NCBI RefSeq assembly: GCF_004014715.1
Contig: NZ_CP034835.1
Location: forward strand, 1,984,001 to 2,048,000
Direction: 5' to 3'
Source: Pseudoalteromonas sp. R3
GTDB taxonomy: Bacteria > Pseudomonadota > Gammaproteobacteria > Enterobacterales > Alteromonadaceae
Length of the DNA: 64,000 nt
Position numbers and translations under genes: made by a program. Below the pieces are notes generated by a model. It was not told the origin of the DNA, did no database searches, and saw only the letters and a program-made list of their open reading frames with translations. Shown piece by piece: positions 1 through 15,919 of the stretch. Each line of letters opens with the position of its first letter. Within the stretch, counting starts at the first letter, position 1.

Positions 1-38
1 GAAATTTAACCAATTAAACAAAAAAGCGAAAAAAAAGC

Positions 39-67
39 TTCACAAGGGCGTCAGGATTCACTAATAT
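39..67 (+). promoter_or_regulatory. sigma-70 promoter of the tRNA-Ser pair
   Basis: A -35 hexamer TTCACA (39-44) and a -10 hexamer TAATAT (62-67) are separated by exactly 17 bases. The bases after the -10 are GC-rich (CGCCCCGC), the discriminator type associated with stringent control of stable-RNA promoters. The tRNA begins 12 bases after the -10. The promoter call is inferred from spacing and sequence only. Confidence 0.7.
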
Positions 68-79
68 TCGCCCCGCTGC

Positions 80-170
80 GGAGAGATGGCTGAGCGGTTG
101 AAAGCACCGGTCTTGAAAACCGGCATACGTTAATAGCGTATCTAGGGTTCAAATCCCTATCTCTCCGCCA
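80..170 (+). tRNA. tRNA-Ser (anticodon TGA), copy 1
   Basis: The acceptor arms GGAGAGA and TCTCTCC pair, followed by G and an encoded CCA. The anticodon loop CTTGAAA gives anticodon TGA, which reads UCA codons. The long variable arm and the GGTTCAAATCC T-arm are typical of class II serine tRNAs. A second copy follows 58 bases downstream and differs by one visible base in the D arm (GAGCGG here, GAGTGG there). Confidence 0.97.
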
Positions 171-228
171 CTAATTTTATAAGAATTTGCCAAGTGAGGT
201 CCACTGGCGGGTTTATACAATCTGTTTT

Positions 229-319
229 GGAGAGATGGCTGAGTGGTTGAAAGCACCGGTCTTGAAAACCGGCATACGTTAATAGCGTATCTAGGGTTCA
301 AATCCCTATCTCTCCGCCA
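229..319 (+). tRNA. tRNA-Ser (anticodon TGA), copy 2
   Basis: This is a second 91-base tRNA-Ser(UGA) with encoded CCA, identical to the first copy apart from C to T in the D arm. It lies between copy 1 and a strong terminator, so both are probably processed from one transcript. No separate promoter is obvious in the 58-base spacer. Confidence 0.97.
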
Positions 320-323
320 TATT

Positions 324-356
324 AAGGCCGTAAGTCTCAGACTTACGGCCTTTTTA
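324..356. terminator. intrinsic terminator, probably bidirectional
   Basis: A perfect 12-bp stem (AAGGCCGTAAGT, 324-335, with ACTTACGGCCTT, 341-352) closes a CTCAG loop and is followed by a T run. It lies between the tRNA-Ser pair on the plus strand and the convergent HPF-like gene, and can terminate transcription from either side. Confidence 0.88.
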
Positions 357-362
357 CTTTTT

Positions 363-677
363 TCATCTTGCACGGGTTGCTAGCCTCAATGCGCGTTTTA
401 CGTAACGTTTAGCCCGGTGAGCGCAGGCATTAATTGCATCGGACGCCTTATCTGCCACCTCATTCACTTCAACCTGCTGATAGCCTCTCAGCCCGACTCG
501 GATCGTACAGTAAACTTGTTGAATGTCGTCTAACTGGTTTTCATCCGTCAAAAGGTAAACTTCGACTTTGTCAATTTGCCCTGCATAGCGGCCAAGCATA
601 AGCCTGATTTGTGCATCTACATGATTGTTTTCGGCTTCTGTCGCGTCACTATGGGATGAAAACACATCTACCCACAT
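363..677 (-). CDS. HPF/RaiA-family ribosome-associated protein
   Basis: This 104-aa protein matches the ribosome hibernation/sigma-54 modulation (RaiA/HPF) fold. It shows the family pattern of a strand with YLLTDEN, then CTIRVGLRGYQQVEVNEVADKASDAINAC, then a basic C-terminal helix (AKRYVKRALRLA). Members bind the small ribosomal subunit and stabilise inactive ribosomes, but this one is short and divergent, so the ribosomal role is inferred from the family. It is transcribed alone, converging on the tRNA-Ser terminator. The start ATG at 677 follows AATGAGAGT. Confidence 0.72.
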   Translation of the reverse strand: MWVDVFSSHSDATEAENNHVDAQIRLMLGRYAGQIDKVEVYLLTDENQLDDIQQVYCTIRVGLRGYQQVEVNEVADKASDAINACAHRAKRYVKRALRLATRAR

Positions 678-847
678 AATTTACTCTCATTGATTGATTT
701 AAAGTTCGTTTATCTGCTTAAACGTCGCCTGTAATGTGATCGTGCTACCTCATCAAGCGTATCAATCGAAAAGAATTAAGTGAAATCGTTTGTTCTATAT
801 ACTACAGTTCGGATTATTCGAAGTGTCTTCGACTATGAGGAAGCCCC

Positions 848-1750
848 ATGCAGGATGTCATTAACTACAAACACTTAAAGTACTTCTGGGCTGTTGCGCA
901 TGAGGGCAGTATTGCCAAGGCCAGTGCTAAGCTGAACATTACCCCGCAAACCATCAGCGGTCAGTTGTCTTTGCTCGAAGAGCGCGTCGGTAATGAGCTT
1001 TTGCAAAAAGAGGGCCGTGGACTGCGATTAACCGATACCGGCCGAGTCGTATTGCGTTACGCTGACGAGATCTTTGAGCTGGGTAATGAGTTGAGTGATG
1101 TCTTAAAAGGTAACAGTGCGGTGGGCCCGGCAGAGTTTATTGTTGGCGCCTCCAGTGTATTGCCCAAAACCATAGTGCATAAGATTATTGAGCCCGCCAT
1201 GCATATTGAGCAGGACATCCGCCTGACCAGCCTGGAAGGGCCAGTTGACAGTATGCTTGCTGACTTGGCGGTTCATAAAGTTGACTTGGTGTTGAGCGAT
1301 GTGCCTGTTACTGGGGCATTTAGTGTCAAGGCGTACAACCATTTGCTGGGAGAAAGTAGTATTACCTTTTTAGCGGCCCCCGCACTTGCCAGACAGTACG
1401 CCAAAAACTTTCCTATATCGCTTAATAATGCACCTTTATTACTGCCGACACAGCAACATGAAATTCGTAAAGAGTTTGATTTTTGGTTAAGCGATCAGAA
1501 TATTCACCCCAATATCGTGGCGCAGTTTGATGACAGTGCGTTGATGAAATCGTTTGGTCAGTCTGGTTTGGGGTTGTTTTTTATGCCCAGCGCCATTGCT
1601 CAAAATGTGTGTGATGCATTCCATGTACGCCCGGTGGGTGAGCTGCCAAACATAAAACAAAAGTTTTATGCGATTTCAGCAGAGCGAAAAATCCGACACC
1701 CGGCTATTGCTGCGATATTCAATACAGCCAAATCGTCGCTATTCAAATGA
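848..1750 (+). CDS. nhaR: LysR-family regulator, NhaR type
   Basis: This 300-aa LysR-type regulator has an N-terminal winged helix-turn-helix at about residues 8-66 (KYFWAVAHEGSIAKASAKLN, then TPQTISGQLSLLEER). The wording resembles E. coli NhaR, which has NHLYYFWHVYKEGS and TPQTITGQI. The effector domain fills residues 90-300. NhaR activates sodium/proton antiporter genes in response to Na+. Here no nhaA follows. The next gene in the same direction, about 150 bases on, is a P-type ATPase heading an Mrp antiporter operon, the likely target by context. GAGGAAG precedes the ATG. Confidence 0.85.
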   Translation: MQDVINYKHLKYFWAVAHEGSIAKASAKLNITPQTISGQLSLLEERVGNELLQKEGRGLRLTDTGRVVLRYADEIFELGNELSDVLKGNSAVGPAEFIVGASSVLPKTIVHKIIEPAMHIEQDIRLTSLEGPVDSMLADLAVHKVDLVLSDVPVTGAFSVKAYNHLLGESSITFLAAPALARQYAKNFPISLNNAPLLLPTQQHEIRKEFDFWLSDQNIHPNIVAQFDDSALMKSFGQSGLGLFFMPSAIAQNVCDAFHVRPVGELPNIKQKFYAISAERKIRHPAIAAIFNTAKSSLFK

Positions 1751-1896
1751 GCTACGTTATCAAAGTGGCAAAAAATCAACCTTGCGCCAAAATTACAGTT
1801 CGTATTTTTCGATTTTTTAAGTTTGATAATTCGAGTTTTACATAGCATTGCTGCACCCTAGTATAGTTTTAGTACAACTAGTTCCCGAGGTGTTTT

Positions 1897-4659
1897 ATGC
1901 AAGATCTGAAAGACTGGCACAGTCAACACTCAGAATCAGTACTCAAGCAGTTCGAGGCCGACCCGGAGCGAGGGTTATCTTCGCAACAGGTCGACAGGCA
2001 ACAGGCAGAATTTGGGCCAAATGCCATTACTAAACATGATGGAGACGGACCGATAAAACGGTTCGCTCTGCAATTCCATCAGCCTTTGGTTTACATCTTG
2101 CTTTCGGCAGTAGTGGTGACGCTGGCACTCCAGGAGTGGGTCGACGCCATCGTCATTTTTGCTGTGGTGCTACTCAATGCCATCATTGGCTTTGTACAAG
2201 AGTCTAAGGCAATTAATGCCATCAATGCCTTGTCTGGCAGTATTAAATCAACTGCAATCGTGATCCGTGATGGAGTAAAAACGACCATTGCTGCACAACA
2301 ACTGGTGCCTGGCGATATTGTGCTGCTGCAGGCCGGTGATAAAGTGACCGCAGACATGCGCCTGGTGCAGGTTAGAGATTTACAGGTGGACGAGTCGGCA
2401 CTGACCGGTGAATCCGTGCCTGTGGAGAAAAATCTGGAGGTGCTGGCGAAAGAAGCGCTGCTGGGAGATCGCCAGAATATGGCGTTTTCATCGACGCTGG
2501 TGGTTTATGGTACCGGCGTTGGGGTAGTAACTGAAACTGGTGATAACACCGAAATAGGTAAAATCTCCGAGCTGATCGCGACGACGCCAACGCTGGACAC
2601 ACCGTTGACCAAACGCATCAAGCAATTTAGTCATGTCTTGTTATATGCGATTATCGGCCTGGCAGCGATCACCTTGCTGATAGGGTACTTGCACGGACAA
2701 CCACTACTTGATTCCTTTATGGCCGCGGTTGCTTTGGCTGTGGGGGCTATTCCGGAAGGGCTGCCAGCAGCGGTCACGATTATGCTGGCCATTGGCGTTT
2801 CCCGCATGGCTAAACGTAAAGCCGTTATTCGCAATCTCCCGGCGGTTGAAACGCTGGGAAGTACCACCATCATCTGCTCTGACAAGACAGGTACTTTGAC
2901 CAAAAATGAGATGACCGTAGAGCAGATCTACAGCGGCGGACTGCTTTATGCGGTATCTGGCAATGGTTATAATCCCACAGGTGAGATCCAAACTCACATG
3001 CCGCAGTCTGAGTTACAGTCAGCTGTTGTTGAGGCCAATACCCAGCCAGGTCTTTATGCAACACTCAGAGCTGGTGCGCTGTGCAATGATGCTCAACTCT
3101 TGGCACCGGATACAGGAAATGCACAGTGGCGTATCGGCGGTGATCCGACCGAGGCAGCATTACTGGTGTCTGCACATAAAGCTAATATGGCCTCAGAAAG
3201 CCTGAATGCCAAACGAATTGATTGCATACCGTTTCAATCAGAATATCAGTATATGGCCACTCTGGATGACGTCGACGACACGCGTATAATCCATATGAAG
3301 GGATCTATCGAGAGTATTCTGCCTAAATGTCGGTTTATGCTTAATGAGCAGGGCGCCGCAATTCTTCTTGAACACGGGGCGATTGAGCAACAAGCCGAAC
3401 GCTTGGCTGCTAAAGGCTTGCGCGTACTGGCTTTTGCCAGCAAAGAGACAAGTCCGGAGCAAACGAGCCTGAGCCATGACGATGTTGCTCAGGAGCTGGT
3501 GTTTCTGGGGCTGCAAGCAATGATAGATCCGCCTCGCCCTGAGGCCATTGAAGCTGTTGCTGCCTGTCACAGAGCTGGGATCCGGGTCAAGATGATCACC
3601 GGAGATCATGCGCTGACTGCCACCAGTATTGCCAAACAGCTCGGCATTATTCAACCGCAAAGCGCAGGAAAAACCGTTACGGGCTATCAGCTCGGTGACC
3701 TATCGGAGCATGAGTTCAGTGATATTGCCAGTAATAATGATGTGTTTGCACGGGTCAGCCCTGAAAATAAACTTCAGCTGGTGAAATCGTTACAGGCCGA
3801 AGGCCATGTTGTGGCCATGACGGGGGATGGTGTTAATGATGCGCCCGCGCTCAGACGGGCCGACATTGGTGTTGCCATGGCACTCAATGGCACTGAAGTG
3901 GCCAGAGATGCGTCGGATATGATGCTGACTGATGATAACTTTGCCACTGTGCGGGCTGCTGTTGAGGAAGGTCGGGGTGTCTTTGACAATCTGAAGAAGT
4001 TTATTGTCTGGACCTTACCAACCAACGGTGGCGAAGGCCTGGTGATTTTACTTGCGGTGTTACTTGGCGTGTCCCTGCCGTTATTGCCGGTGCATATTCT
4101 GTGGGTCAACATGACCACTGCCATTTTACTCGGTCTGATGCTGGCGTTTGAGCCCAGAGAAAAGGGCATTATGGACCGTCCACCCTACGATCCGGATGCT
4201 CCTATCATTGACAGGATCTTAATGTGGCGAATTTTGTTGGTGTCCTCTTTATTGTGTATCACGGCCTTCGGCTTATACGAGCTTGAATTAATGTGGGGCG
4301 CAACTGAAGCGCAAGCCAGAACCGTCGCAGTCGCTATGTTTGTGGTCGGTGAAGCATTCTACCTGTTCAACTGTCGCTCGTTGGAACGGTCGGTATTTTC
4401 GGTTGGCTTGTTTTCAAACCGCTGGATCTGGATAGGCATCGCGCTGATGATGGCATTACAGTTGCTGTTTACCTACCTACCCTTGATGAATGACTGGTTC
4501 CAGAGTGCACCTATCTCACTTGAGGCCTGGTTACGAGTTATTGCCTGTGGTTGGTTGATCTCCCTGATTGTTGGAGCTGAAAAGCGCCTGCGCAGTGGTA
4601 ACGAAGAACCACAGTCAACCTCAGATTCAAATACCAACAGAGTGAGTGAATCAGTATGA
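1897..4659 (+). CDS. type II cation-transporting P-type ATPase
   Basis: This 920-aa protein has all P-type ATPase landmarks: actuator TGES (170-173), phosphorylation motif DKTGTLT with D329, a KGS nucleotide-site motif, and the hinge TGDGVNDAP (642-650). TM4 carries PEGL (P286-E287) and TM5 has NGGE, as in SERCA-type pumps. TM6 reads WVNMTTA, so the position of the SERCA calcium-ligand Asp is Ala742. A pump for Na+ or another monovalent ion is therefore as likely as a Ca2+ pump. Its stop codon overlaps the start of mrpE (ATGA), which makes it the first gene of the antiporter operon. GAGGTG lies upstream of the ATG. Confidence 0.9.
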   Translation: MQDLKDWHSQHSESVLKQFEADPERGLSSQQVDRQQAEFGPNAITKHDGDGPIKRFALQFHQPLVYILLSAVVVTLALQEWVDAIVIFAVVLLNAIIGFVQESKAINAINALSGSIKSTAIVIRDGVKTTIAAQQLVPGDIVLLQAGDKVTADMRLVQVRDLQVDESALTGESVPVEKNLEVLAKEALLGDRQNMAFSSTLVVYGTGVGVVTETGDNTEIGKISELIATTPTLDTPLTKRIKQFSHVLLYAIIGLAAITLLIGYLHGQPLLDSFMAAVALAVGAIPEGLPAAVTIMLAIGVSRMAKRKAVIRNLPAVETLGSTTIICSDKTGTLTKNEMTVEQIYSGGLLYAVSGNGYNPTGEIQTHMPQSELQSAVVEANTQPGLYATLRAGALCNDAQLLAPDTGNAQWRIGGDPTEAALLVSAHKANMASESLNAKRIDCIPFQSEYQYMATLDDVDDTRIIHMKGSIESILPKCRFMLNEQGAAILLEHGAIEQQAERLAAKGLRVLAFASKETSPEQTSLSHDDVAQELVFLGLQAMIDPPRPEAIEAVAACHRAGIRVKMITGDHALTATSIAKQLGIIQPQSAGKTVTGYQLGDLSEHEFSDIASNNDVFARVSPENKLQLVKSLQAEGHVVAMTGDGVNDAPALRRADIGVAMALNGTEVARDASDMMLTDDNFATVRAAVEEGRGVFDNLKKFIVWTLPTNGGEGLVILLAVLLGVSLPLLPVHILWVNMTTAILLGLMLAFEPREKGIMDRPPYDPDAPIIDRILMWRILLVSSLLCITAFGLYELELMWGATEAQARTVAVAMFVVGEAFYLFNCRSLERSVFSVGLFSNRWIWIGIALMMALQLLFTYLPLMNDWFQSAPISLEAWLRVIACGWLISLIVGAEKRLRSGNEEPQSTSDSNTNRVSESV

Positions 4660-5216
4660 ATAAAAAGGCGCATTCTCACAATTCAGACAAACGGACCTTG
4701 CTTATCCGGGCAGTGATATTCAGCGCTTTATGGCTGCTACTCACAAAAGGGGTCTGGTCCTCCTGGGTAATAGGTATCATCGTCGTACCTGTGTCGGTAT
4801 GGATGAGCATGCGTCTTTTTCATAACGCGGCAGCCGTGCCTGTTCATTCTGTAACAGGGCAGCTGCATTATGGTCGTTTGCTGCGCCTGCTGCCGTATTT
4901 TTTGCTTAACTCGTTGAAAGGGGGAATACAAACAGCGCGGCTGGCTTTTGCTCACCGCATTGCATTGCGCCCTGGGACGGTTTCCTATCCGCTACGTTTG
5001 CCTTCGGGCCATACACAGCTGTGGTTTATTCACCTGATCAGTTTACTACCAGGCACGTTGAGTGCCCAACTGAATGGTGATTCCTTGTTGGTACACATGC
5101 TGGAAGTAAATGAAAGCAATTATCGGGATGTGATTGAATGTGAACAAAAGATCGCCTATTTGTTTGATTTAGAACTAGATCAGCAAGTGGTGCCGATTTT
5201 GAAGGAGCAACTATGA
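4656..5216 (+). CDS. mrpE: Mrp-type cation/proton antiporter subunit E
   Basis: This 186-aa MnhE/MrpE-family membrane protein has two N-terminal hydrophobic segments (residues 16-50), a basic link, and the characteristic SYPLRLPSG and HLISLLPGTLSAQLNGD region followed by the VHMLEVN strand. MrpE is an accessory subunit needed for assembly of the multisubunit antiporter. It overlaps the upstream ATPase and the downstream mrpF by four bases each, so translation is probably coupled along the operon. Confidence 0.9.
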   Translation: MNKKAHSHNSDKRTLLIRAVIFSALWLLLTKGVWSSWVIGIIVVPVSVWMSMRLFHNAAAVPVHSVTGQLHYGRLLRLLPYFLLNSLKGGIQTARLAFAHRIALRPGTVSYPLRLPSGHTQLWFIHLISLLPGTLSAQLNGDSLLVHMLEVNESNYRDVIECEQKIAYLFDLELDQQVVPILKEQL

Positions 5217-5470
5217 GTGAGTATTTAAACCTGGTTATTACAATTTTAATACTGGTTCTCCTTGGTGGGCTGTGGCGGCTTTGGCTGGGCCCATCGAAGC
5301 TTAACCGGATACTGTCTCTACAACTGTTTGGCACCATAGGCGTTGCGATTTTGGCGCTGCTGGCAGTCGTATATCAACAAAGTGCTTTATTTAACGTAGC
5401 GCTGGTATTGGCCCTGCTGGCTCCAACCGCAACGGTCATTTTGGTCAAAATGGGAGACACTAAATCATGA
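5213..5470 (+). CDS. mrpF: Mrp-type antiporter subunit F
   Basis: This 85-aa protein has three predicted transmembrane helices and the family pattern RLWLGPSKLNRILSLQLFGT in the first loop. MrpF is a small accessory subunit of the Mrp antiporter (MbhB in the archaeal hydrogenase). It overlaps mrpE and mrpG by four bases each. Confidence 0.88.
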   Translation: MSEYLNLVITILILVLLGGLWRLWLGPSKLNRILSLQLFGTIGVAILALLAVVYQQSALFNVALVLALLAPTATVILVKMGDTKS

Positions 5471-5811
5471 CGTTTTTTGACTGGTACAGTGTAGTTATGG
5501 TGACGCTCGGTGTGTTCTTTTTCATCGCTGGGGGTGTTGGTTTGTGGCGTTTTCCAGACGAATTATCCCGGCTGCATGCGTTGACCAAGGCCGACAATCT
5601 GGGCTTGGGGTTTATCGTACTGGGGGTGTTACCTCAGGTTATAGAAGTGGCAGATGCAATTCAGCTGTTGTTGATTTGGGTCGCAGTGATGCTGGCTGGA
5701 GCCGTCTCATGCTATTTATTGGCCAGTCACTCAGATTTGGAGCAAGGTAAACAACCGGTAAAACAGCGAGGCAGACTGGAGGAACAGGAGGTAGCGCATG
5801 ATAAGCGGTGA
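5467..5811 (+). CDS. mrpG: Mrp-type antiporter subunit G
   Basis: This 114-aa three-helix protein has the MrpG signature GGVGLWRFPDELSRLHALTKADNLGLG. MrpG (MbhC in Mbh complexes) supports assembly of the antiporter. The C-terminal 25 residues are charged and cytoplasmic. The gene overlaps mrpF by 4 bases and the next gene by 14 bases. Confidence 0.9.
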   Translation: MTFFDWYSVVMVTLGVFFFIAGGVGLWRFPDELSRLHALTKADNLGLGFIVLGVLPQVIEVADAIQLLLIWVAVMLAGAVSCYLLASHSDLEQGKQPVKQRGRLEEQEVAHDKR

Positions 5812-6040
5812 ATTATTTATCGACCTACTATTGGGTACTGGGGCCTTAGTAACCGCAATATTGTGTCTCACTGCTAAAGACTTATTTCAGGCGATTTTAC
5901 TGTTTATCAGCATGGGCCTGCTAGTAACGCTTGCCTGGGTCAGACTGGGTGCGTGGGATGTTGCCATCGCAGAGGCGGCGATTGGAGCGGGTTTGACTGG
6001 TGCATTGCTTATCGCCACGCGTCGACAGCTCAACCAATAA
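5798..6040 (+). CDS. DUF4040/MbhD-like subunit (split MrpA C-terminal part)
   Basis: This 80-aa protein has three hydrophobic segments and the DUF4040 pattern AKDLFQAILLFISMGLL, then AWDVAIAEAAIGAGLTGALL. In classical Mrp complexes this NuoJ-like region is the C-terminal part of MrpA. In archaeal Mbh it is the separate subunit MbhD. Here it is stand-alone, as in Mbh, and sits at the Mbh position directly after mrpG. The ATG lies inside the end of mrpG. Confidence 0.82.
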   Translation: MISGELFIDLLLGTGALVTAILCLTAKDLFQAILLFISMGLLVTLAWVRLGAWDVAIAEAAIGAGLTGALLIATRRQLNQ

Positions 6041-6073
6041 AACTGTGTTAAATAATAACAACAGAGGTAACTT

Positions 6074-6835
6074 ATGTTTAATAACATGACATTAAGTGAC
6101 AGTGCACAACAAGAAGCAGACTTGCCCGGCAGCATCTTGTTGATCGTTGGTATGGTGGTTGTTGCAGCCTGTCTATTTCTGGCTATTTCCCTGGTCCAGT
6201 TTCAGTCTATAGACCAATCGCTAGTGACACTGGTTGCCTCTAATCTGGAGCAAAGTGGTGTAGAGAACCCGGTTACGGCCGTGCTACTTAACTTTCGCAG
6301 TTATGATACTTTGCTGGAAGTTGCGGTGCTGTTGATTGTTGCCCTGGCAGTGATGCCCTTCAGTTTACAAGTCGCCCGACAGCCCTTCATTAAAGTATCT
6401 GAACCTCGAAAGCGGAGCCTGATACTTGAGGCCTTCCTGCGGTGGTTGTTACCGGCGATAGTCGTTACATCCGGGTATTTACTTTGGACTGGTGCGGCAT
6501 TGCCAGGCGGTGCGTTTCAGGCGGGTGCATTGCTGGCAGGCGCAGGGATTTTGCTGCTACTTGCCGGTCATCACAGTTTTAACTTCAATGCACCCACCGC
6601 ACGCCTGTTGTTGGTGGTTGGCTTAGCCATGTTTTTATTGGTCGGTGCTGGTGTCGTCCTGTCAAGTGGCATTGCGTTGGCTTACCCGGAGGCCATGGCT
6701 GGCACGTTAATTCTGGTAATAGAAGTGGCAGCGACAATAACCATAGCGGCAATCCTGGTTTTACTATTTTGTGCTTTGCAGATTGAGCCTCAGCATGCAC
6801 TGGCAAATCGTGTTGAGGAGGAGAAGCACTCATGA
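6074..6835 (+). CDS. mrpB: MbhE-MrpB fusion subunit (MnhB domain)
   Basis: This 253-aa protein has two parts. Residues 1-110 resemble MbhE (NPVTAVLLNFRSYDTLLEVAVLL), the NuoJ-like segment. Residues 110-250 are an MnhB domain with the pattern LPGGAFQAGALLAGAGILLLL. In Pyrococcus Mbh these are two neighbouring subunits (MbhE and MbhF); here they are one protein. A GAGGT site precedes the ATG after a 33-base gap, the only real gap in the operon. The stop overlaps mrpC by four bases. Confidence 0.82.
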   Translation: MFNNMTLSDSAQQEADLPGSILLIVGMVVVAACLFLAISLVQFQSIDQSLVTLVASNLEQSGVENPVTAVLLNFRSYDTLLEVAVLLIVALAVMPFSLQVARQPFIKVSEPRKRSLILEAFLRWLLPAIVVTSGYLLWTGAALPGGAFQAGALLAGAGILLLLAGHHSFNFNAPTARLLLVVGLAMFLLVGAGVVLSSGIALAYPEAMAGTLILVIEVAATITIAAILVLLFCALQIEPQHALANRVEEEKHS

Positions 6836-7119
6836 CGCAAGCTTTGTTGTATGGTGTCTTTGGTATTGCACTGTTCGGTATTGGTCTGTTTGGCGTCTTG
6901 GCAATTGCCCATGTCGTTAAGAAGATACTCGCCATCAATATTTGTGGTGTGGGGGTGTTTATGGTGTTTATAGCGAATGCCTCCTCCGGCGCTTCACCAG
7001 ATTTTGTACCACACGCTATGGTATTAACTGGGATCGTAGTTGCGGTGGCAGGTACGGCAATGGCCTTGTCTTTGGTGGTTCGGATCAAAGCACTTGAAAA
7101 GCCTGAGGAAGACGTTTAA
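6832..7119 (+). CDS. mrpC: Mrp-type antiporter subunit C (NuoK-like)
   Basis: This 95-aa protein has three transmembrane helices and the MrpC/NuoK pattern DFVPHAMVLTGIVVAVAGTAMAL. It is homologous to complex I subunit NuoK and forms part of the lateral ion path beside the antiporter subunits. It overlaps mrpB by 4 bases and mrpD by 1 base. Confidence 0.92.
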   Translation: MTQALLYGVFGIALFGIGLFGVLAIAHVVKKILAINICGVGVFMVFIANASSGASPDFVPHAMVLTGIVVAVAGTAMALSLVVRIKALEKPEEDV

Positions 7120-8633
7120 TGCCAGTAATCGACGCTGCTTCTTTACTACCCTTGCTGATTGCAATCCCCCTGATTGGGGCTATTCTCTCGGTATTGCTGC
7201 ATACTAAAGATGCTCAGGTGCTGATTGGGCTGCTTAGCGCACTGGGCTTGGTATTCGTAATAGGGCTTATCTTGGCCAATTTTCCCCCTGGAGTCTCCGA
7301 GTTCGCGACCCCTCTGAGGTATGCCCTTGCAGGCTGGGAGGCTCCTTTGGGTATTGCGCTAAGCCTTGATGGGTTCTCAGCTCTGCTACTGTCATTGACC
7401 GTTTTTTTGGTCACAGTATTGACCTTTTATTCTGCTTTCTATTTCGCAGCATCACCTGCACGTGTGCGCTTTTGGCCTCTGTGGTGGTTGTTGGTGGCGG
7501 GGATCAATGCGTTATTCCTGTCTGCTGACATTTTCAATGTCTATGTGACACTCGAAATTATCGGATTAGCAGCGGTTGCTCTGGTCGCGTTAAGTGGCAA
7601 TAAAGCGGGCCTGACGGCAGCGTTGCGTTATTTATTAGTCGGTCTGTTAGGGTCTCTTTGTTATCTGCTTGCTGTGGCTTTGTTGTATCACGTCTATGGT
7701 ACTCTAGACTTTACACAGCTTGCAGCCAAAGCTGAATCCAATCCATTAAGCTGGGCTGCATTGGCGCTAATCACTGTGGGTTTGGTGCTAAAAACCGCCC
7801 TGGTCCCATTGCACTTTTGGTTACCTCATGCTCATGGCAGTGCACCGGCACCAGTGAGTGCTATTTTGTCCGCTTTGGTTGTCAAAGCGTCGTTTTATCT
7901 GTTGGTACGATTTTGGATGGAGATCCTGGCACCCGCCGTTACCAATGAAGCGTTAATGCTATTGGGCATATTAGGAGGGACAGCTATTCTGTGGGGGTGT
8001 GTGCAGGCACTCAGAGCAAAGCGTCTCAAACTGATGGTGGCATACTCGACCGTCGCGCAAATTGGTTATCTGTTTTTGCTGTTTCCACTTTTGATGAGCA
8101 CTGAGAAAGCATCGGTATCGCAACTGGCTGCCCAGCAGCAAAGTGCGCTCGCCGCGGTGTCTTATTTTATTGTCGCCCATGCCTGTGCCAAGGCAGCGAT
8201 GTTTATTGCTGCTGGCAACATCATACATTCGCTTGGTCATGACGACATTGCTAAGCTGCAGGGCATGGCAAAGTATATGCCATTGAGTTTGTTTACTTTT
8301 GCGATAGCAGGAGGCAGCTTAATCGGCCTGCCACCCAGCGCAGGCTTTATCGCCAAATGGTTACTGCTCAATGTTGCCATTGATACTCACCAGTGGTGGT
8401 GGGTTGTGATCATTCTTAGCGGCGGTCTGCTGGCAGCACTGGCGATATTCAGAGTGCTGGATCTGGCATTTATTAAACCGGAACAGGCGTCTGAGCAAGT
8501 TGCCCCTGACAACTGGCAGAAGGTGCCTGTGGCTATGCCTGTCAGTGGCCTGGCGTTGGCCCTGTGTACTATGGCGCTGGGTTTCAATGCGGACCTGATC
8601 ATTGACCTGATAGCGATAGGAGGCGGTAAATGA
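7119..8633 (+). CDS. mrpD: Mrp-type antiporter subunit D
   Basis: This 504-aa protein is a complete proton-antiporter (NuoL/M/N-like) domain of about 14 helices. TM5 keeps the conserved glutamate (E146 in VYVTLEIIGL). The TM7 lysine lies in LVLKTALVPLHFWLPHAH, and the TM8 region reads APAPVSAILSALVVKAS. These charged residues form the proton relay in Mrp and complex I subunits. It is one of three such domains encoded by this operon. Confidence 0.93.
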   Translation: MPVIDAASLLPLLIAIPLIGAILSVLLHTKDAQVLIGLLSALGLVFVIGLILANFPPGVSEFATPLRYALAGWEAPLGIALSLDGFSALLLSLTVFLVTVLTFYSAFYFAASPARVRFWPLWWLLVAGINALFLSADIFNVYVTLEIIGLAAVALVALSGNKAGLTAALRYLLVGLLGSLCYLLAVALLYHVYGTLDFTQLAAKAESNPLSWAALALITVGLVLKTALVPLHFWLPHAHGSAPAPVSAILSALVVKASFYLLVRFWMEILAPAVTNEALMLLGILGGTAILWGCVQALRAKRLKLMVAYSTVAQIGYLFLLFPLLMSTEKASVSQLAAQQQSALAAVSYFIVAHACAKAAMFIAAGNIIHSLGHDDIAKLQGMAKYMPLSLFTFAIAGGSLIGLPPSAGFIAKWLLLNVAIDTHQWWWVVIILSGGLLAALAIFRVLDLAFIKPEQASEQVAPDNWQKVPVAMPVSGLALALCTMALGFNADLIIDLIAIGGGK

Positions 8634-11600
8634 TGTGGCAAAGTACTCTGCCTTTGTTGATTTTACTGAGCGCACTGGTATCCGGGGTTACGATATTTTT
8701 TGTCAGCGACAACAAGCCTATACTTAGAAAAACTCTGAACTTTCTTGGCGCTGGCAGCTGTGTTGGCCTGATCTTGGTGATGATCTCGGGTGTGTATCAG
8801 GGACAGGTTTTTGAAACGCGTTTGCCCTTGCTGCCTAATATGGATTTGGTGTTGCATGCGGATGCGTTGTCATTACTGTTTGTCGCCTTATCCGGTTTTT
8901 TGTGGTTATTAACGACGATTTATGCCATCGGGTATCTGGAGCAATCACCTAACCGTAGCCGCTTTTTCGGTTTTTTTAGCCTGTGTGTATTCGCAACCAT
9001 TGGTGTTGCGCTGGCTGGTAACTTGATCACTTTTTTGATTTTCTACGAGCTACTGACGCTGACAACTTATCCACTGGTAGTCCATAAGGGGAATAAAGCC
9101 TCGCTGGCGGCAGGACGTAAATACCTGATTTATACCATGCTAGGTGGCGCCAGTTTGCTCGCCGGTGTTGTGTGGTTAAAAGCCCTGGCGGGATCATTGG
9201 ACTTTACCGCGACGGGGATCCTCGCGTCCATGCCTCATTTAGACCCATTCCACCTGAAAGTGATTTTTGCCCTCATAATTATAGGGTTAGGGGTAAAGGC
9301 GGCATTGATCCCGTTGCATGGTTGGCTACCTTCTGCCATGGCTGCACCCGCCCCTGTGAGTGCATTGTTACACGCGGTTGCCGTGGTTAAAGCGGGTGCA
9401 TTTGGCATAGTGCGGGTTGTTTATGATGTCTATGGAGTTGAATTTGCTCAGGAACTTGGTCTAACCATCATTCTGGCTGTGTTGGCTTCTGTGACAATTG
9501 TTTATGGCTCTACCCGAGCTGTGTTCCAGGATGACCTTAAACGCAGGCTGGCTTATTCAACGGTCAGTCAGGTTTCCTACATTGCACTCGGCACCGCCAT
9601 TGCCGGACCAATCGCGACAATCGGTGGCATTGCACATCTGGTCCACCAGGGATTGATGAAAATCACCATGTTCTTCTGCGCCGGTAGCATAGCAGAAACT
9701 CTGGGTGTCACTAAGGTCAGTCAGATGAATGGGGCCGGGAAACGAATGCCGTTAACCATGTTGGCGTTTAGCTTGGCGGTACTGGGCATGATAGGGATAC
9801 CGCCCGCAGCGGGTTTTATTTCAAAATGGTATCTGGGCACCGGAGCACTTGAGGCAGGCTTTTATTGGGTACTGGGGGTACTTATTATCAGTAGTCTGCT
9901 CAATGCTATCTACTTTCTGCCAATTTTATACGCGGCTTGGTTTAAACCACAGCAGGGCGCCTGGCCAAAAGAAAAACCCAAGGGGCGGCTAGAAACGCAC
10001 TGGATGCTCATGTTACCACCTGTAGTGACTGCACTACTGGCGCTCAGCGCAGGCTTGTTTGCTGATGCCCAGTTTAGCCCGCTGAACTGGGTGAAACTGA
10101 TAGCAGCCCGAGAATATGGCAGTGAGTTTGTATCAATACTGGCAGCCAGTTCGCAACAAATTCCTGCAATGTGGCTGGCGCTTGGTGCACCGTTATTGGG
10201 GGCGCTATTGCTGGTGCGCAAGCAAATGCAGCAGGTTGCACACTGGTTTTTACCCTTATCAGCAGGTATAGCACTGCTTGCCTATGCAATTTCTGGACAA
10301 GGCACCAACACCACACCTTGGTTATTTTTTGGCAGTGTGCTGACGCTAAATGATACAACATCGACCTTCTTCCTGCTTGCTGTCTGTCTGTGGTTACTGG
10401 CAGCGGTTTTTGCCGTTAATTTTGTTAAAGCTGATGAGCGTAAAGTTAGGTTTTGTCTGTTTTTCCTGCTAGCCATGTGCGGCAATTTTGGGCTTGTGCT
10501 GGCCCAGGATATTTCAGGTTTTATCAGCTTCTTCACCTTGATGAGTCTGGCTTCGTACGGCCTGGTTGTGCACTTTGATACGGATGAAGCACATCAGGCG
10601 GGCAAATCTTACATGCAATGGGCTGTACTGGGAGAGTTGTTGCTTTTTACAGGACTCGCAGGCCTGGCATTTGGATCAATTGATCCCTCCTCAGCTGGAA
10701 ATCCGGAGCAAACTTATCCGGCCTGGGCAATCGGGTTTTTACTTGCCGGGTTTGGAGTAAAGGCAGGCTTGTTTGGCTTGCACGTATGGCTGCCAATGGC
10801 GCATCCGGTCGCACCCGTTGCAGCCAGTGCGTTACTAAGCGGTGTTATGGTGAAAGCGGGGCTGCTAGGGTGGCTTAAATTTATTCCATTCGGTGAGGTG
10901 GCCTTCGCAACGTATGGCTCTGTGCTGGTGGTGCTCGGGTTATTTGCTGCATTTTTAGGCGTTCTGGTAGGGGTTACACAGGATAACCCTAAAGCCTTAC
11001 TTGCATACTCAACGATGAGCCAGATGGGCATTTTGATTGCGGCTGTGGGGGTAGGGTTGAAATATCCCGAGTTATGGTCCTTATTGCTGCCCGCTATTGT
11101 GTTGTACGCAGTGCATCATGGTCTGGCTAAGGCTGCACTGTTCCTTTTTGCTGGCATAAATAGCACTTTAACATGGCACAGGTATCGCTGGGGTTGCTTG
11201 CTGGCAGCTGCATTACCCGCTGCTGCACTGGCCGGGTTGCCACTAACCAGTGGTGCGGTTGCCAAGGTCGCGCTAAAGGATGTTGTGGAGCGGGATTTGC
11301 TCATGGGGACAGTACTGCCGTTGACAGCAATAGGGACCACCTGGCTGATGATGCGATTCTTGCAGTTGATTGCGCAAAAGCAACCAAAAAAGGTGACTGG
11401 CCAGCCTGATGTACTTCAGTTAGGTGCGTACGGCACATTATTGATATTGGTGACGGTGCTGAGTTATCTGATACCGCAAGCCAATGGTGCTTGGGCTAAT
11501 CAACTGACTGGGGCAAGCTTTTGGGGCAGTGCATGGCCTGTACTTCTTGGTCTGGGGATCTATTTTATAACACGAGCATTTGTTGACGGTATGGGACCAT

Positions 11601-11860
11601 TACCGGCTGGCGATATCAATGTCGCTTATACGGAAGCGGGCAGTCTGGTACGTCTTGGTGCAGAGACACTGGCGCAGGGCTTAAAATTGTTAAAAGATGA
11701 AATAGAGAATACCTCTTGGCAGTTGCCTCAGCGTGTGGTTTATCGGCAGGCGCGTGTAGTTGGTCTCGCGGTGGCGGCCGTACGTTCCCTGATGACGCCT
11801 GGCGTATTGTTTGCGTTGCTTTTGTGCATGCTGCTGTGGGCGATGATAGCAGCAAGGTAA
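8630..11860 (+). CDS. tandem double-domain Mrp/NuoL-like antiporter subunit
   Basis: This 1076-aa membrane protein contains two complete antiporter domains in tandem. Domain 1 (about 1-450) has E140 in IFYELLTL, lysines in GVKAALIPLHGWLPSAM, and APAPVSALLHAVAVVKAG. Domain 2 (about 550-960) has VKAGLFGLHVWLPMAHPVAP and VHHGLAKAALF, but the TM5 glutamate position is Thr636 (ISFFTLMSL). There is no MrpA-type C-terminal DUF4040/MnhB extension, since those parts are separate genes upstream. It occupies the MrpA role and is likely the last subunit of the complex. It overlaps mrpD by four bases. Some databases would call it MrpA or NuoL. Confidence 0.85.
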   Translation: MMWQSTLPLLILLSALVSGVTIFFVSDNKPILRKTLNFLGAGSCVGLILVMISGVYQGQVFETRLPLLPNMDLVLHADALSLLFVALSGFLWLLTTIYAIGYLEQSPNRSRFFGFFSLCVFATIGVALAGNLITFLIFYELLTLTTYPLVVHKGNKASLAAGRKYLIYTMLGGASLLAGVVWLKALAGSLDFTATGILASMPHLDPFHLKVIFALIIIGLGVKAALIPLHGWLPSAMAAPAPVSALLHAVAVVKAGAFGIVRVVYDVYGVEFAQELGLTIILAVLASVTIVYGSTRAVFQDDLKRRLAYSTVSQVSYIALGTAIAGPIATIGGIAHLVHQGLMKITMFFCAGSIAETLGVTKVSQMNGAGKRMPLTMLAFSLAVLGMIGIPPAAGFISKWYLGTGALEAGFYWVLGVLIISSLLNAIYFLPILYAAWFKPQQGAWPKEKPKGRLETHWMLMLPPVVTALLALSAGLFADAQFSPLNWVKLIAAREYGSEFVSILAASSQQIPAMWLALGAPLLGALLLVRKQMQQVAHWFLPLSAGIALLAYAISGQGTNTTPWLFFGSVLTLNDTTSTFFLLAVCLWLLAAVFAVNFVKADERKVRFCLFFLLAMCGNFGLVLAQDISGFISFFTLMSLASYGLVVHFDTDEAHQAGKSYMQWAVLGELLLFTGLAGLAFGSIDPSSAGNPEQTYPAWAIGFLLAGFGVKAGLFGLHVWLPMAHPVAPVAASALLSGVMVKAGLLGWLKFIPFGEVAFATYGSVLVVLGLFAAFLGVLVGVTQDNPKALLAYSTMSQMGILIAAVGVGLKYPELWSLLLPAIVLYAVHHGLAKAALFLFAGINSTLTWHRYRWGCLLAAALPAAALAGLPLTSGAVAKVALKDVVERDLLMGTVLPLTAIGTTWLMMRFLQLIAQKQPKKVTGQPDVLQLGAYGTLLILVTVLSYLIPQANGAWANQLTGASFWGSAWPVLLGLGIYFITRAFVDGMGPLPAGDINVAYTEAGSLVRLGAETLAQGLKLLKDEIENTSWQLPQRVVYRQARVVGLAVAAVRSLMTPGVLFALLLCMLLWAMIAAR

Positions 11861-11936
11861 GCTTATACGACCAAAGTTGACTTGTGATACTTATGCTTCG
11901 CGTCGACACTGACTATCTCTGTGCAAGGTAATAAAG

Positions 11937-12326
11937 GTGAAAGAGATGATCAGAAGGCAAGTGGCAAAAGCGGTGGCATATTCGTTATTTTCACCGCTAA
12001 TCGTTGGCATAGTGCTCGGAGGGTATTATGCCCTGATAAGTGGTCAGAGTAAGATTTTGTTTCAAATACTCATGACGGCTGTAGCCAATGCCCATATCGT
12101 TGGCCTGTCTATGGCGTTTTTTGTTTTGCCAGCTTATGTGATGTTGTTGCGCCACAACAAACTGACTTACTCGGGTATTTTGACCGCGGGTATGCTCGGA
12201 GGCGCACTGTTTAGCTACTTGTTTGTTGCAAGCTCTGGTATGGTTTTTATCATTAATGCAGTGATGGCGGCGCTGGGAGGCGGGCTGTTTTTGTTCAGTT
12301 TACGGCGCAATGCTCAGAACGTCTGA
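11937..12326 (+). CDS. small four-helix membrane protein, unknown
   Basis: I do not recognise this 129-aa protein. It has about four hydrophobic helices (residues 15-35, 45-70, 80-100, 104-122), short loops and a basic N terminus (KEMIRRQVAK). The start shown is GTG at 11937 after AAGG; an in-frame ATG at 11946 is equally possible. It lies 76 bases after the antiporter operon with no clear terminator between, so cotranscription is possible but unproven. Confidence 0.6.
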   Translation: MKEMIRRQVAKAVAYSLFSPLIVGIVLGGYYALISGQSKILFQILMTAVANAHIVGLSMAFFVLPAYVMLLRHNKLTYSGILTAGMLGGALFSYLFVASSGMVFIINAVMAALGGGLFLFSLRRNAQNV

Positions 12327-12439
12327 TGGCTTTTTGTACAGCGTGGCGTAGATTTACACTAATTTAATAGTTTTTCTGTCTAAAAGGTTTCATTTAGCTG
12401 CACGAAAGAGTACCTTTACTTCTTATGTAAATTTGTTGA

Positions 12440-12907
12440 ATGACCGCAATGCAGAAGAAAAAGTTCTACGATACTCTCAGCCTACAAGCTCAGGCCCTAA
12501 TTGGTGATGAGCACAACTACATCGCCAATATGGCAAACCTCAGCGCCCTGTTATTTACCTCAATGGAAGACATAAACTGGGCAGGCTTTTACCTTTTAGA
12601 TGGTAAAGATGAGCTCGTACTAGGTCCTTTCCAGGGCAATCCAGCCTGCATTCGAATCCCGTTAGGCAAAGGCGTATGTGGTACCGCGGCTGCTGAGTTA
12701 ACGACTCAGCTCGTAGAAGATGTACACAGCTTTGATGGTCATATTGCCTGCGATGCCGCTTCAAACTCTGAAATTGTTATTCCCGTTATGAGAAACGGTG
12801 AACTGTTTGCTGTATTGGACATTGATAGTCCGAGTTTGGCTAGATTTGACGATGAAGATAAACTTGGCCTGGAAGCACTGGTAAAATGCTTTGAAGGTAC
12901 ATTGTAA
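12440..12907 (+). CDS. msrC: free methionine-(R)-sulfoxide reductase (GAF domain)
   Basis: This 155-aa single GAF-domain protein reduces free methionine-(R)-sulfoxide. The three family cysteines are present: C70 (GNPACIRIP), C80 (GKGVCGTAA) and C104 (HIACDAASNSE), with the same 10 and 24 residue spacing as E. coli YebR/MsrC. It is one base upstream of the next gene and belongs to the msrC-small acidic protein-proQ-prc block. The ATG at 12440 has no good ribosome site; an ATG three codons later is an alternative. Confidence 0.92.
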   Translation: MTAMQKKKFYDTLSLQAQALIGDEHNYIANMANLSALLFTSMEDINWAGFYLLDGKDELVLGPFQGNPACIRIPLGKGVCGTAAAELTTQLVEDVHSFDGHIACDAASNSEIVIPVMRNGELFAVLDIDSPSLARFDDEDKLGLEALVKCFEGTL

Positions 12908-13192
12908 ATGAAAGAATTACTCAACGTTCAGGACTACCTGTTTTCCAACTTTGATGTGGGAGACTGGGAAGGGGAAGAAGAGCGAGTTGCTGAGACGCTG
13001 AATGAGCTTATCCACGTAGCCTGGGACATGCTTCCCGATGATCTGGAATGTGAGAAAATCGATTTAATTATAAATGGAATATGGGAACATCTGCGCGGCG
13101 AGTTGGCGCTTGTCGAAGCCGAGTATGATGAACTCGTCGACTGGGTTACACATTACATTCAGTCATCTCTTGATGAAAATATTGAACTATAG
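12908..13192 (+). CDS. small acidic protein upstream of proQ, unknown
   Basis: This 94-aa, strongly acidic and leucine-rich protein is predicted to be helical, with many Glu and Asp, two Cys at most, and no signal peptide. I recognise no family. It starts directly after the msrC stop and ends 8 bases before proQ, so it is almost certainly cotranslated in this operon. Any link to ProQ, a very basic RNA-binding protein, is only suggested by position and opposite charge. Confidence 0.72.
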   Translation: MKELLNVQDYLFSNFDVGDWEGEEERVAETLNELIHVAWDMLPDDLECEKIDLIINGIWEHLRGELALVEAEYDELVDWVTHYIQSSLDENIEL

Positions 13193-13200
13193 GTTTAGAC

Positions 13201-13872
13201 ATGGAAACCACAAACAAGCTAAAAGATATCAAAGAGGTTCTCGACTTTTTATATGCCGAGTTTCCTCAGTGTTTTAAACAAAAAGACGGTATTAAACCGC
13301 TAAAGGTTGGCATATTTAAAGATATCGCTGCCAGAATCGAAGGCTCTGACAAAGTCAGTAAGACTCAGGTTCGACAGGCTTTACGTAAGTACACCTCTTC
13401 TTGGCGTTATTTAGAAGCGGTTATCAATAATGAATTTCGTGTTGACCTGGACGGTAACGATGCTGAAAAAGTTGAGCAAGAGCACGTAGAGCATGCGCAA
13501 AAAGCGCTGGAAGAATCACGTGCCAAAATGGCTAAACGTAAAAAGCCTCAACGTCCGAGACAGGATGGTCGTGGCGAGCGTCGTCGCGATGGTGACACAA
13601 AATCTTACAAATCACGTGGTGATAACAAGCACCGCCACGGGAATAAAAACGCTAAAGTTAATGCTAAGCCTGAGCAGCAACAGCGTCGTAGTTCAGGGAA
13701 AGTTGAACCTCTGCCAGCAAATGAGGTCAAGGTAAATAATAAGGTTAAAGTGAAGTTGGGACAGGCTCTGGTCAATGCAACCATCACAGAAGTCAACAAA
13801 GATGAAGTTCATGTTGAGTTAGTGACAGGTATGCAAGTTAAAACCAAAGCAGAAAGCCTGTTTATTCTTTAA
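13201..13872 (+). CDS. proQ: RNA chaperone ProQ
   Basis: This 223-aa protein has the full ProQ layout. An N-terminal FinO-type RNA-binding domain (about 8-115) shows FPQCFKQKDGIKPLKVGIFKD and ALRKYTSSWRYLEAV. A long, very basic flexible linker (about 120-170) follows. The C-terminal Tudor-like domain (about 170-223) reads VKVKLGQALVNATITEV and TKAESLFIL. ProQ binds structured 3' ends of sRNAs and mRNAs. It is followed 10 bases later by prc, the same pair as in E. coli. Confidence 0.95.
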   Translation: METTNKLKDIKEVLDFLYAEFPQCFKQKDGIKPLKVGIFKDIAARIEGSDKVSKTQVRQALRKYTSSWRYLEAVINNEFRVDLDGNDAEKVEQEHVEHAQKALEESRAKMAKRKKPQRPRQDGRGERRRDGDTKSYKSRGDNKHRHGNKNAKVNAKPEQQQRRSSGKVEPLPANEVKVNNKVKVKLGQALVNATITEVNKDEVHVELVTGMQVKTKAESLFIL

Positions 13873-13882
13873 GGAGTCGTGT

Positions 13883-15919
13883 ATGAGTAATAAGTTACCT
13901 TTAGTTGGTGTAATCGCACTGTTTGTATCTGGCGTGTGCTCAGCTGCAACACAGACGGTGACGGAAAAAGATATTCCCATATTGGAACCTGAAATCCAGC
14001 ATGCGACGGCAACAAAAAGGGTAACCAGTAAATTTACTCGTGAACACTATAAGCGCTTTAAGCTCGACGATGCGTTGTCGGAACAGATATTTGACCGGTA
14101 CATCGAAAACCTCGATTACAACAAGTCTCTTTTCCTGCAGTCTGACATTGACAAGTATTCAGGGTATAAAAAGCAATTCGACGATGCTTTGAAAAAAGGC
14201 AAGCTCGATTTTGCTTTTGCGATGTTCAACGACAGTATGCAACGTCGATATGAGCGCTTTAACTATGCAATTTCTCTGTTAGACACAGAAATGAAGTTTG
14301 ATAAACCAGACGAATTTGTGTTTGACAGAGAAGACATGCAGTTTGCCACAACTCAAGCCGAGTTGGATGAGTACTGGCGACAGCGTGTTAAGTCTGATGC
14401 ACTGAGATTAAAACTCACAGGCAAAGACTGGGCCGGCATCAAAGAAGTACTGACCAAGCGTTACAAAAACACCATCAAACGTCTGGTACAGACCAACAAT
14501 GAAGATGCTTTTCAAATTGTAATGAATGCATTTGCGCGTAGCATTGAAGCCCACACTTCTTATTTGTCACCTCGCCGTGCCGAACAGTTTAAGATGGATA
14601 TGGAACTTGAACTAGAAGGCATTGGTGCAGTACTTGGTTACGATGAAGATTACACCATCATCCGCAGTCTGGTTCCTGGCGGTCCAGCCGATAAGACGGA
14701 AAAGATTAAGCCAGATGACCGCATTGTAGGTGTTGCACAAGATGGTGAAGAATTTGTTGATGTGATTGGCTGGCGTCTCGATGATGTCGTTGATCTCATC
14801 AAAGGACCTAAAGGGACTAAAGTAAGACTGCAGTACCTTAAGGGAAGCGACACTCATGGCACACCTAAGGTCGTTGAGATCGTCCGAGATAAGATACGCC
14901 TTGAGGACAGAGCTGCAAAGTCGGAAATCTTCGAAGCTAAATACTCAGACCTTACCAGCAAAATAGGCGTGATAGAGATCCCAAGCTTTTACAACAATCT
15001 GTCGAAAGATGTGAAGAAAGAGCTTGAAAAGCTTAAAGAACAAAATGTTGATGGGATTATCGTTGATCTCAGACAAAATGGCGGTGGCTCCCTGTATGAA
15101 GCCACTCAATTGTCAGGTTTATTTATAGACAAAGGCCCGATAGTTCAGATCCATACCGCATACAACCGTGTAGAAGCACAAAAAGACAGCGATGGGATAA
15201 CCTACTATGATGGTCCGTTAACTGTACTGGTTGACCGTTACAGCGCATCGGCTTCAGAGATATTTGCTGCTGCGATGCAGGATTACGGGCGTGCTGTGGT
15301 CATCGGCGAGCAAACTTTTGGTAAAGGTACTGTTCAGCAACACAGAGGTCTCAGAAAGACCTATGATCTGTTCGATAACGCACTAGGCAGCATTACTTAT
15401 ACTATTGCCAAGTTTTATCGTATTGATGGTGGCAGTACACAAAACAAAGGCGTAATTCCAGATATTTTGCTGCCTTCTGCAATTGAACCAGCAGAGTGGG
15501 GCGAGAGCCAGGAAGATAATGCTTTACCTTGGGACAGCATTGTCAGAGCCAAGTACCAGCAATTGGATGACCTGAGTCCAACCATTGAGTATTTGAATGA
15601 ACGCCATGGTTTGCGAATAGCCAAAGAGCCTGAATTTGCTTACGTTTACGACGATATTGCGCGATATAAAGCCCAAAAAGACGATATATCTATTTCTCTG
15701 GTTGAAACTGAGCGTACGAAAGAGCGTGAGGAACGCGACGAACGAGCGTTAAAACGCACCAATGAACGCCTTAAACGTTTAGGGCAAGAGCCTGTAAAAG
15801 ATTTGGATGACGTGCCAGATGTCATCGCTGAGCTCGACCCTTATCTCGAAGAAGCAGCCCTAATCACACAAGATATGATTAACTATGGTCGCCTGGCAAA
15901 AAACGAGGCTGGTGACTGA
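13883..15919 (+). CDS. prc: periplasmic tail-specific protease Prc/Tsp
   Basis: This 678-aa S41 peptidase has a signal peptide (cleavage near residue 21, GVCSAAT), an N-terminal lid region, a PDZ domain (about 240-325: GIGAVLGYDEDYTIIRSLVPGGPADK) and the protease domain with S456 in SASASEIFAAAMQDYGRA and K481 in FGKGTVQQ. The 25-residue Ser-Lys spacing equals that of E. coli Tsp. It degrades periplasmic proteins from the C terminus and processes PBP3. AAGGAG lies upstream of the ATG. Confidence 0.96.
   Translation: MSNKLPLVGVIALFVSGVCSAATQTVTEKDIPILEPEIQHATATKRVTSKFTREHYKRFKLDDALSEQIFDRYIENLDYNKSLFLQSDIDKYSGYKKQFDDALKKGKLDFAFAMFNDSMQRRYERFNYAISLLDTEMKFDKPDEFVFDREDMQFATTQAELDEYWRQRVKSDALRLKLTGKDWAGIKEVLTKRYKNTIKRLVQTNNEDAFQIVMNAFARSIEAHTSYLSPRRAEQFKMDMELELEGIGAVLGYDEDYTIIRSLVPGGPADKTEKIKPDDRIVGVAQDGEEFVDVIGWRLDDVVDLIKGPKGTKVRLQYLKGSDTHGTPKVVEIVRDKIRLEDRAAKSEIFEAKYSDLTSKIGVIEIPSFYNNLSKDVKKELEKLKEQNVDGIIVDLRQNGGGSLYEATQLSGLFIDKGPIVQIHTAYNRVEAQKDSDGITYYDGPLTVLVDRYSASASEIFAAAMQDYGRAVVIGEQTFGKGTVQQHRGLRKTYDLFDNALGSITYTIAKFYRIDGGSTQNKGVIPDILLPSAIEPAEWGESQEDNALPWDSIVRAKYQQLDDLSPTIEYLNERHGLRIAKEPEFAYVYDDIARYKAQKDDISISLVETERTKEREERDERALKRTNERLKRLGQEPVKDLDDVPDVIAELDPYLEEAALITQDMINYGRLAKNEAGD

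Follow-up and report, generated by a model that had tools for sequence, protein, structure and literature searches.

The window analysed here, a stretch of 64,000 nucleotides from Pseudoalteromonas sp. R3 (contig NZ_CP034835.1, positions 1,984,001 to 2,048,000), carries at 1897-11860 a row of nine genes in which a P-type ATPase gene runs into genes for an Mrp-type cation/proton antiporter. Which class of Mrp is this, why would a primary cation pump be encoded with it, and which ion would the two transport? We lean, by a little, towards reading the segment as a sodium/pH homeostasis module in which Mrp and ATPase would be controlled by a NhaR-type regulator encoded just upstream. This reading builds on the observed gene content, gene order, conservation and residue patterns, from which the regulation, the ion and the coupling are predicted.

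Gene order and class of the Mrp cluster

In the open reading frame (ORF) listing, all nine genes lie head to tail on the + strand; seven of the junctions are overlaps of 1-14 bases and one is a gap of 33 bases, and the ATPase gene (1897-4659) overlaps mrpE by 4 bases, as the earlier note had described on both counts. mrpE (4656-5216, PF01899), mrpF (5213-5470, PF04066) and mrpG (5467-5811, PF03334) are joined by 4-base overlaps at both junctions, and mrpG overlaps by 14 bases the gene of an MbhD/DUF4040 subunit, which corresponds to a portion of the MrpA C-terminus (5798-6040, PF13244). The 33-base gap separates the latter from a 253-residue protein that combines MbhE and MnhB (B') (6074-6835, PF20501 and PF04039), followed by mrpC (6832-7119, PF00420, Oxidored_q2; 4-base overlap), the MrpD-like antiporter subunit D1 (7119-8633, PF00361; 1-base overlap) and, after another 4-base overlap, a 1076-residue protein made of two antiporter-like halves, D2 and D3 (8630-11860). 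Together with the NhaR gene, Pfam and NCBIfam family searches name ten genes across 848-11860. No terminator separating the ATPase from the mrp genes was seen: a consensus scan gave no + strand terminator-like site within 4406-4825, and thus none at the ATPase/mrpE junction. Over 1-14000, the scan returned 17 promoter-like sites for 17.2 expected, and 25 terminator-like sites for 16.9 expected (standard deviation 3.8). The earlier note had spoken of an operon "fusing" the ATPase to Mrp, a word that holds for the operon-like block and not for the protein, no ATPase-Mrp fusion protein being present.

The order E-F-G-DUF4040-MbhE/B'-C-D1-D2-D3 comes without a separate full-length mrpA, and E, F, G, B-type, C and D subunits are encoded together with several mrpD-type copies. 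Group 3 Mrp systems are defined in the same terms, with mrpA absent and mrpD at times in several copies (PMC8415708; here and below, published sources are represented by excerpts). The cluster fits a Group 3 Mrp antiporter with three antiporter-like subunits, and monovalent cation/proton exchange by the Mrp part is predicted. With the stand-alone Group 3 Mrp of Pyrococcus furiosus, mrpEFGBB'CD, which has no hydrogenase (PMC8415708), it shares the lack of a separate full-length mrpA and the E-F-G-B-B'-C-D order. Extra D-type genes have been described as well: cyanobacterial Group 3 Mrp (mrpCD1D2EFGAB) has an additional mrpD copy (PMC5703873), and in 'Ca. Nitrospira alkalitolerans' mrpD is followed by two NuoM- and NuoL-like genes, which the authors interpret as additional mrpA/mrpD-like genes (PMC7784846). 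Since both the order and the additional D-type genes are already known, the layout is of a known kind. As opposed to the P. furiosus and cyanobacterial systems, the window cluster has three antiporter-like subunits, the third distinct and lacking the glutamate of transmembrane helix 5 (TM5), and adds the D2-D3 fusion, the ATPase and NhaR; the main text on the Nitrospira Mrp mentions neither P-type nor nhaR (PMC7784846). In the open-licence literature, judged by titles and the openings of abstracts, we found no description of a recurrent ATPase-Mrp link, of fused D2-D3 or of the D3 TM5/TM6 pattern, which is weak evidence of absence.

Relatives were drawn from whole-genome searches of a class-level and an order-level sample and from a named genome collection. 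For the latter, the best 80 of 561 confirmed stretches were kept, so that this named set leans to close and fused relatives, and locus counts ignore relatedness. D2-D3 matches at E 1e-150 occur in 33 of 369 class-level genomes, the window's own included, and in 9 of 394 order-level genomes. We read 32 class-level regions in 31 genomes, leaving out G782 with its 3.6-kb contig. D3 directly follows D2 in 30 of them, and the usual order is E-F-G-(DUF4040)-B-C-D1-D2-D3, some short subunits having been missed by the search or lying beyond contig ends. The 80 best named loci, many of them metagenome bins, come from Gammaproteobacteria, Planctomycetota, Verrucomicrobiota, Chloroflexota, Campylobacterota, Myxococcota, Actinomycetota and others; most of the whole ones keep the same order, and E is located at the opposite end in L167 and two Nesterenkonia loci. 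The same or nearly the same Mrp layout is found in many phyla. The searches also returned a second three-antiporter type (T1-T2-T3), present in L018, L020-L023, G669 (C1:2362517-2366459), G499 (C31:33919-37858) and some genomes of the same genus; the tree places its T3 subunit next to MrpA/NuoL (support 85/78), and all four T3 rows inspected retain the TM5 Glu. A universal stress protein gene (L181:6954-7970, assigned to PF00582) has similar genes in 24 of the 80 best named loci, some of them lying between mrpE and mrpF within the operon; the window operon has none.

The earlier note had recognized the order of the Mbh membrane module in these genes, correctly, and took the cluster for an Mbh-derived module whose hydrogenase part had been exchanged for a tandem antiporter protein. 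MbhH is indeed the best solved sequence match for D1 (185.6 bits, followed by MrpD with 167.4), D2 and D3. We nevertheless regard this derivation as very improbable: the P. furiosus Group 3 Mrp has the same order and stands alone without hydrogenase, Pfam and NCBIfam searches of the ten genes over 848-11860 turned up no hydrogenase subunit, and the supposed replacement is two separate genes, D2 and D3, in 57 of the 77 D3 rows of the best named loci. D3 moreover forms a clade of its own in the antiporter-subunit tree, which included no Mbh sequences. Compared with the membrane-bound hydrogenase Mbh, the cluster shares the order of the membrane module and lacks the hydrogenase subunits.

The D2-D3 fusion and the third antiporter-like subunit

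The 1076-residue protein contains two Proton_antipo_M stretches (Pfam). That two genes were misjoined in this assembly can be rejected, since the same protein is found in three others, those of Pseudoalteromonas rubra S2676 and S2471 and Pseudoalteromonas sp. OOF1S-7 (97, 89 and 88% identity), which are also its closest relatives among the best 80 of 561 named loci. With these assemblies, and with D2 and D3 fused in 20 of the 80 best named loci (20 of 77 D3 rows), the tandem antiporter of the earlier note proves genuine. Fusions occur in Pseudoalteromonas, Glaciecola, Paraglaciecola, Colwellia, several marine gammaproteobacterial bins and one Brocadiia bin.

The D2 half (residues 1-500, 8630-10129, + strand, PF00361) has TM5 Glu140, TM7 Lys223 and helix VIII His248. 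In the D3 half (residues 501-1076, 10130-11860, + strand), Thr636 replaces the TM5 Glu, and Glu669 in TM6 and Lys711 in TM7 are present. The TM5 Glu is found in none of the 77 comparison rows of D3 (76 with another residue, one gap), whereas the TM6 carboxylate and the TM7 Lys are found in all 77; lysine also occupies the columns of window residues 742, 834 and 879 in 62, 66 and 66 of 77 rows. On the strength of this conservation, the idea that D3 is a dead copy was rejected. The TM6 carboxylate is not exclusive to D3: the same column is Asp in both NuoL rows, which also have the TM5 Glu, and a PF00361 protein of G669, presumably DabB-like, has TM5 His and TM6 Asp. For NuoL of E. coli, published work gives D178 and E144 as the partners of K229 (PMC13324432; K229/D178 also PMC9271201).

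D3 is a separate clade in the tree and does not group with NuoL, and its C-terminal part is reminiscent of NuoL. D3 was modelled alone because the fold search with the whole 1076-residue model covered mainly the D2 half. Inspected for a counterpart of TM15 and the lateral helix of NuoL, the D3 model has helices at 461-487, 495-527 and 557-575, with a mean predicted local distance difference test score of about 44-76 beyond about residue 490, and its alignments to E. coli NuoL extend to model residues 515-549. Nine of 78 D3 segments are shorter than 460 residues. Compared with the NuoN-NuoM-NuoL arm of complex I, the TM5 Glu retained by NuoL is missing from D3, and the window cluster has E-F-G subunits and no redox arm. 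Some operons (L147-L149, L151, L099) contain two consecutive D3 genes, L081 has extra D3-, D2- and D1-like genes past the operon, and L135 a second, convergent Mrp-like cluster.

Linkage, family and ion of the ATPase

An intact ATPase gene overlaps the Mrp genes or lies at most 1145 bases from them in 8 of 32 other class-level regions; it is upstream in two of these, downstream on the same strand in four and convergent in two. In a ninth region (G674) it is split over two ORFs. The ATPase stands beside the operon in 2 of 9 order-level regions (L016, L034) and within 2.5 kb in 11 of the 80 best named loci (eight upstream, three downstream, one ending with its contig), weak matches with other motifs (L039 and L092, 103 and 116 bits) having been left out. 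By a rough estimate, chance would give about 0.1 such neighbours in 32 genomes of 3 Mb. The pairing, whose absence from related genomes the earlier note would have taken as refutation, recurs across the samples. The linked named loci are from Pseudomonadota plus one Geoalkalibacter bin (Thermodesulfobacteriota), and the ATPase link spans fewer phyla than the Mrp itself. In the window, G581 and G499, the ATPase/Mrp junction is a 4-base overlap.

At E 1e-170, such an ATPase is encoded anywhere in 31 of the 33 class-level genomes with this Mrp, against 157 of 369 overall (Fisher p 1e-10, kinship ignored), and G674, with its split gene, is one of the remaining two. Mapped onto the ATPase tree, the linked/unlinked label changes a minimum of 9 times, at least 7 of these changes forced by well-supported branches, in a count that merges gains and losses; the differing positions of the ATPase gene argue for several gains of linkage. 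The minimum is still 9 after relabelling of L106, which has a D3-like gene upstream, and removal of the very long row L118; rows L133 and L139 were dropped, their genomes being already present.

The ATPase (920 residues, + strand) has the DKTGT motif and the E1-E2 and cation ATPase N and C domains of P2-type pumps, and is P2A-like; at the level of the family, the ATP-driven cation pump of the earlier note is right. The best NCBIfam model is the PMR1-type Ca2+ ATPase (TIGR01522), with a score of 678.8, below its cut-off of 798.3, and TIGR01116 scores 608.1, below 703.4. Counted on alignments to SPCA1 and LMCA1, the residues of interest are Glu287 in transmembrane helix M4, Asn710 and Glu713 in M5, and Asn738 and Ala742 in M6: the M4 Glu and M6 Asn are kept, and the M6 Asp of SPCA1 and LMCA1 (SERCA D800) is Ala742. 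The M6 Asp serves both SERCA sites. All 19 Mrp-linked ATPase rows show N-M-x-[TS]-A, with Ala at the M6 Asp position. As a special mark of Mrp-linked ATPases this loss is discarded, since A, S or G also fills this position in 25 of the 26 rows labelled unlinked, the remaining row being unmatched by the pattern; with nearly all unlinked rows sharing it, the M6 pattern is a trait of the subfamily.

The nearest studied ATPase is CtpF of Mycobacterium tuberculosis, for which D800 and A305 are reported as the sole departures from the Ca2+ sites of SERCA (PMC7525011). The window ATPase departs at the same two places, with Ala742 and a Gly at the A305 position, a likeness drawn via the excerpted description of CtpF; most other Mrp-linked ATPases, from other genera, keep the Ala at the A305 position. 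Candidates for the exported ion are Na+, by gene context, and Ca2+, by the nearest studied relative.

Regulator, proposed function and genomic setting

A NhaR-type LysR regulator is encoded at 848-1750 on the + strand, 146 bases upstream of the ATPase gene, and scores 238.1 bits against the NhaR equivalog model NF008284, above the cut-off of 219. Neither this gene nor the S30AE/HPF-like gene further upstream figures in the earlier note. NhaR has been termed the sole validated Na+-selective gene-control protein of bacteria (PMC9337991). Among the 80 best named loci, 17 have a NhaR-type gene nearby, 12 of them within 2.5 kb (one weak); in four the ATPase lies between, and in L204 the distance is 3.5 kb. 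A pairing of NhaR with the ATPase is not a general trait, being seen besides the window only in L105 among 30 loci with flanks of up to 1.5 kb.

In the sodium/pH homeostasis module that we favour, NhaR would sense Na+ and turn the unit on. E-F-G-B' would form a Na+ path, and D1, D2 and D3 a complex-I-like row of proton channels, with H+ entering and Na+ (perhaps K+/Li+) leaving. D3 would be the outer, NuoL-like module, in which the TM6 carboxylate-TM7 lysine pair replaces the usual TM5 glutamate-TM7 lysine pair. The ATPase would spend ATP to export the same or a linked cation, so that efflux could persist at a low proton gradient, as at high pH or once respiration stops. Several observations weigh against this proposal. 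No adjacent ATPase was seen in 69 of the 80 best named loci, 23 of 32 class-level and 7 of 9 order-level regions, counts that include regions on contigs that end early, and a NhaR-type neighbour is present in only 2 of 32 class-level regions. Unlinked ATPases lack the M6 Asp as well, so this trait is silent on the Mrp link. The C-terminal helices of D3 are of low confidence in both models. Finally, for CtpF a stimulation by Ca2+ and Mg2+ was reported, and none by Na+ or K+ (PMC7525011).

The behaviour of CtpF, together with the departures shared at D800 and A305 and the PMR1-type best model, makes Ca2+ a serious rival. The ATPase would then be a CtpF-type Ca2+ exporter, with Ca2+ efflux coupled to proton/sodium homeostasis in alkaline or Ca2+-rich sea water, or with an Mrp that itself exchanges Ca2+/H+, as reported for that of Thermomicrobium roseum (PMC5703873). 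We judge this possible and yet rather unlikely: the model score stays under its cut-off, Ala takes the place of the M6 Asp, and the ATPase has NhaR and Mrp parts for neighbours. Alternatively, and compatibly with either ion, ATPase and Mrp might share only regulation, as members of a stress regulon with unrelated jobs. The ATPase gene lies upstream, downstream or convergent, which implies no fixed stoichiometric complex, and in L105 (G564) a related ATPase sits beside a NhaR homologue (41% identical) with no Mrp gene found within 1.5 kb. The 4-base junction overlaps in the window, G581 and G499 and the repeated changes of linkage on the ATPase tree speak against mere co-regulation, which we hold to be plausible while inclining against it. 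None of these likelihoods is mutually exclusive with the others. As for the sodium/pH module, its most specific form, a widespread unnamed Mrp class whose D3 works on a TM6 carboxylate-lysine pair, joined in one unit under one Na+-sensing regulator to a Na+-exporting P2A ATPase lacking the M6 aspartate, is put forward tentatively and with some doubt.

Group 3 Mrp, its gene order and additional D-type genes are already known. If the proposal is true, the cluster provides a natural three-module Mrp, two modules on one chain, with which to probe each antiporter-like subunit of complex I, and lets one ask whether the TM5 glutamate is dispensable given a TM6 carboxylate. It would also hint at the substrate of a bacterial P2A ATPase subfamily common enough to occur in the 157 class-level genomes above, and primary and secondary cation export would have been bundled on more than one occasion.

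Elsewhere in the genome (5.82 Mb, two contigs), at about C2:3186600-3192500, lies a second mrp cluster, encoding 731-residue MrpA-like and 503-residue MrpD-like proteins, which looks classical by overall appearance rather than by gene-by-gene search. Among 35 same-genus genomes, only G033 encodes the full-length 1076-residue protein; the 40-41% matches in G003, G017 and G034 belong to another mrp type. The genes that flank the segment in the window (a 221-residue protein at -847 to -182 and a small protein at 11937-12326) are neighbours in 9 of 10 operon-free genomes of the genus, where some 0.5-1.1 kb and a tandem tRNA-Ser pair separate them; the search of the tenth, L252, found neither the tRNAs nor the upstream flanking gene. 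This adjacency indicates that about 320 to 11936 (S30AE-like gene, nhaR, ATPase, mrp) is one block beside the tRNAs, whose tandem tRNA-Ser (TGA) genes at 80-170 and 229-319 mark its edge. G+C is 0.48-0.52 over 2001-12000, 0.43-0.46 over 1-2000 and 12001-17000, and 0.50 at 19001-20000. The block is missing from most sampled same-genus genomes, and its gain here is likelier than its loss elsewhere in the genus. Integration with duplication of a tRNA was rejected, the tandem pair being present also in the nine operon-free genomes.

Within the block, the intergenic stretch 1751-1896 contains a weak + strand promoter-like site at 1837-1864 (9 of 12 matches), in a scan whose promoters overall are not above chance. 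The genes 3' of the operon resemble, as we take them from their sequences, a small unknown protein, fRMsr, ProQ and Prc. The S30AE/HPF-like small protein of the inserted segment (363-677, - strand) matches PF02482 with 23.9 bits, barely above the cut-off of 23.7, and has relatives in 7 of the 80 best named loci, two of them at most 3 kb from mrp genes.

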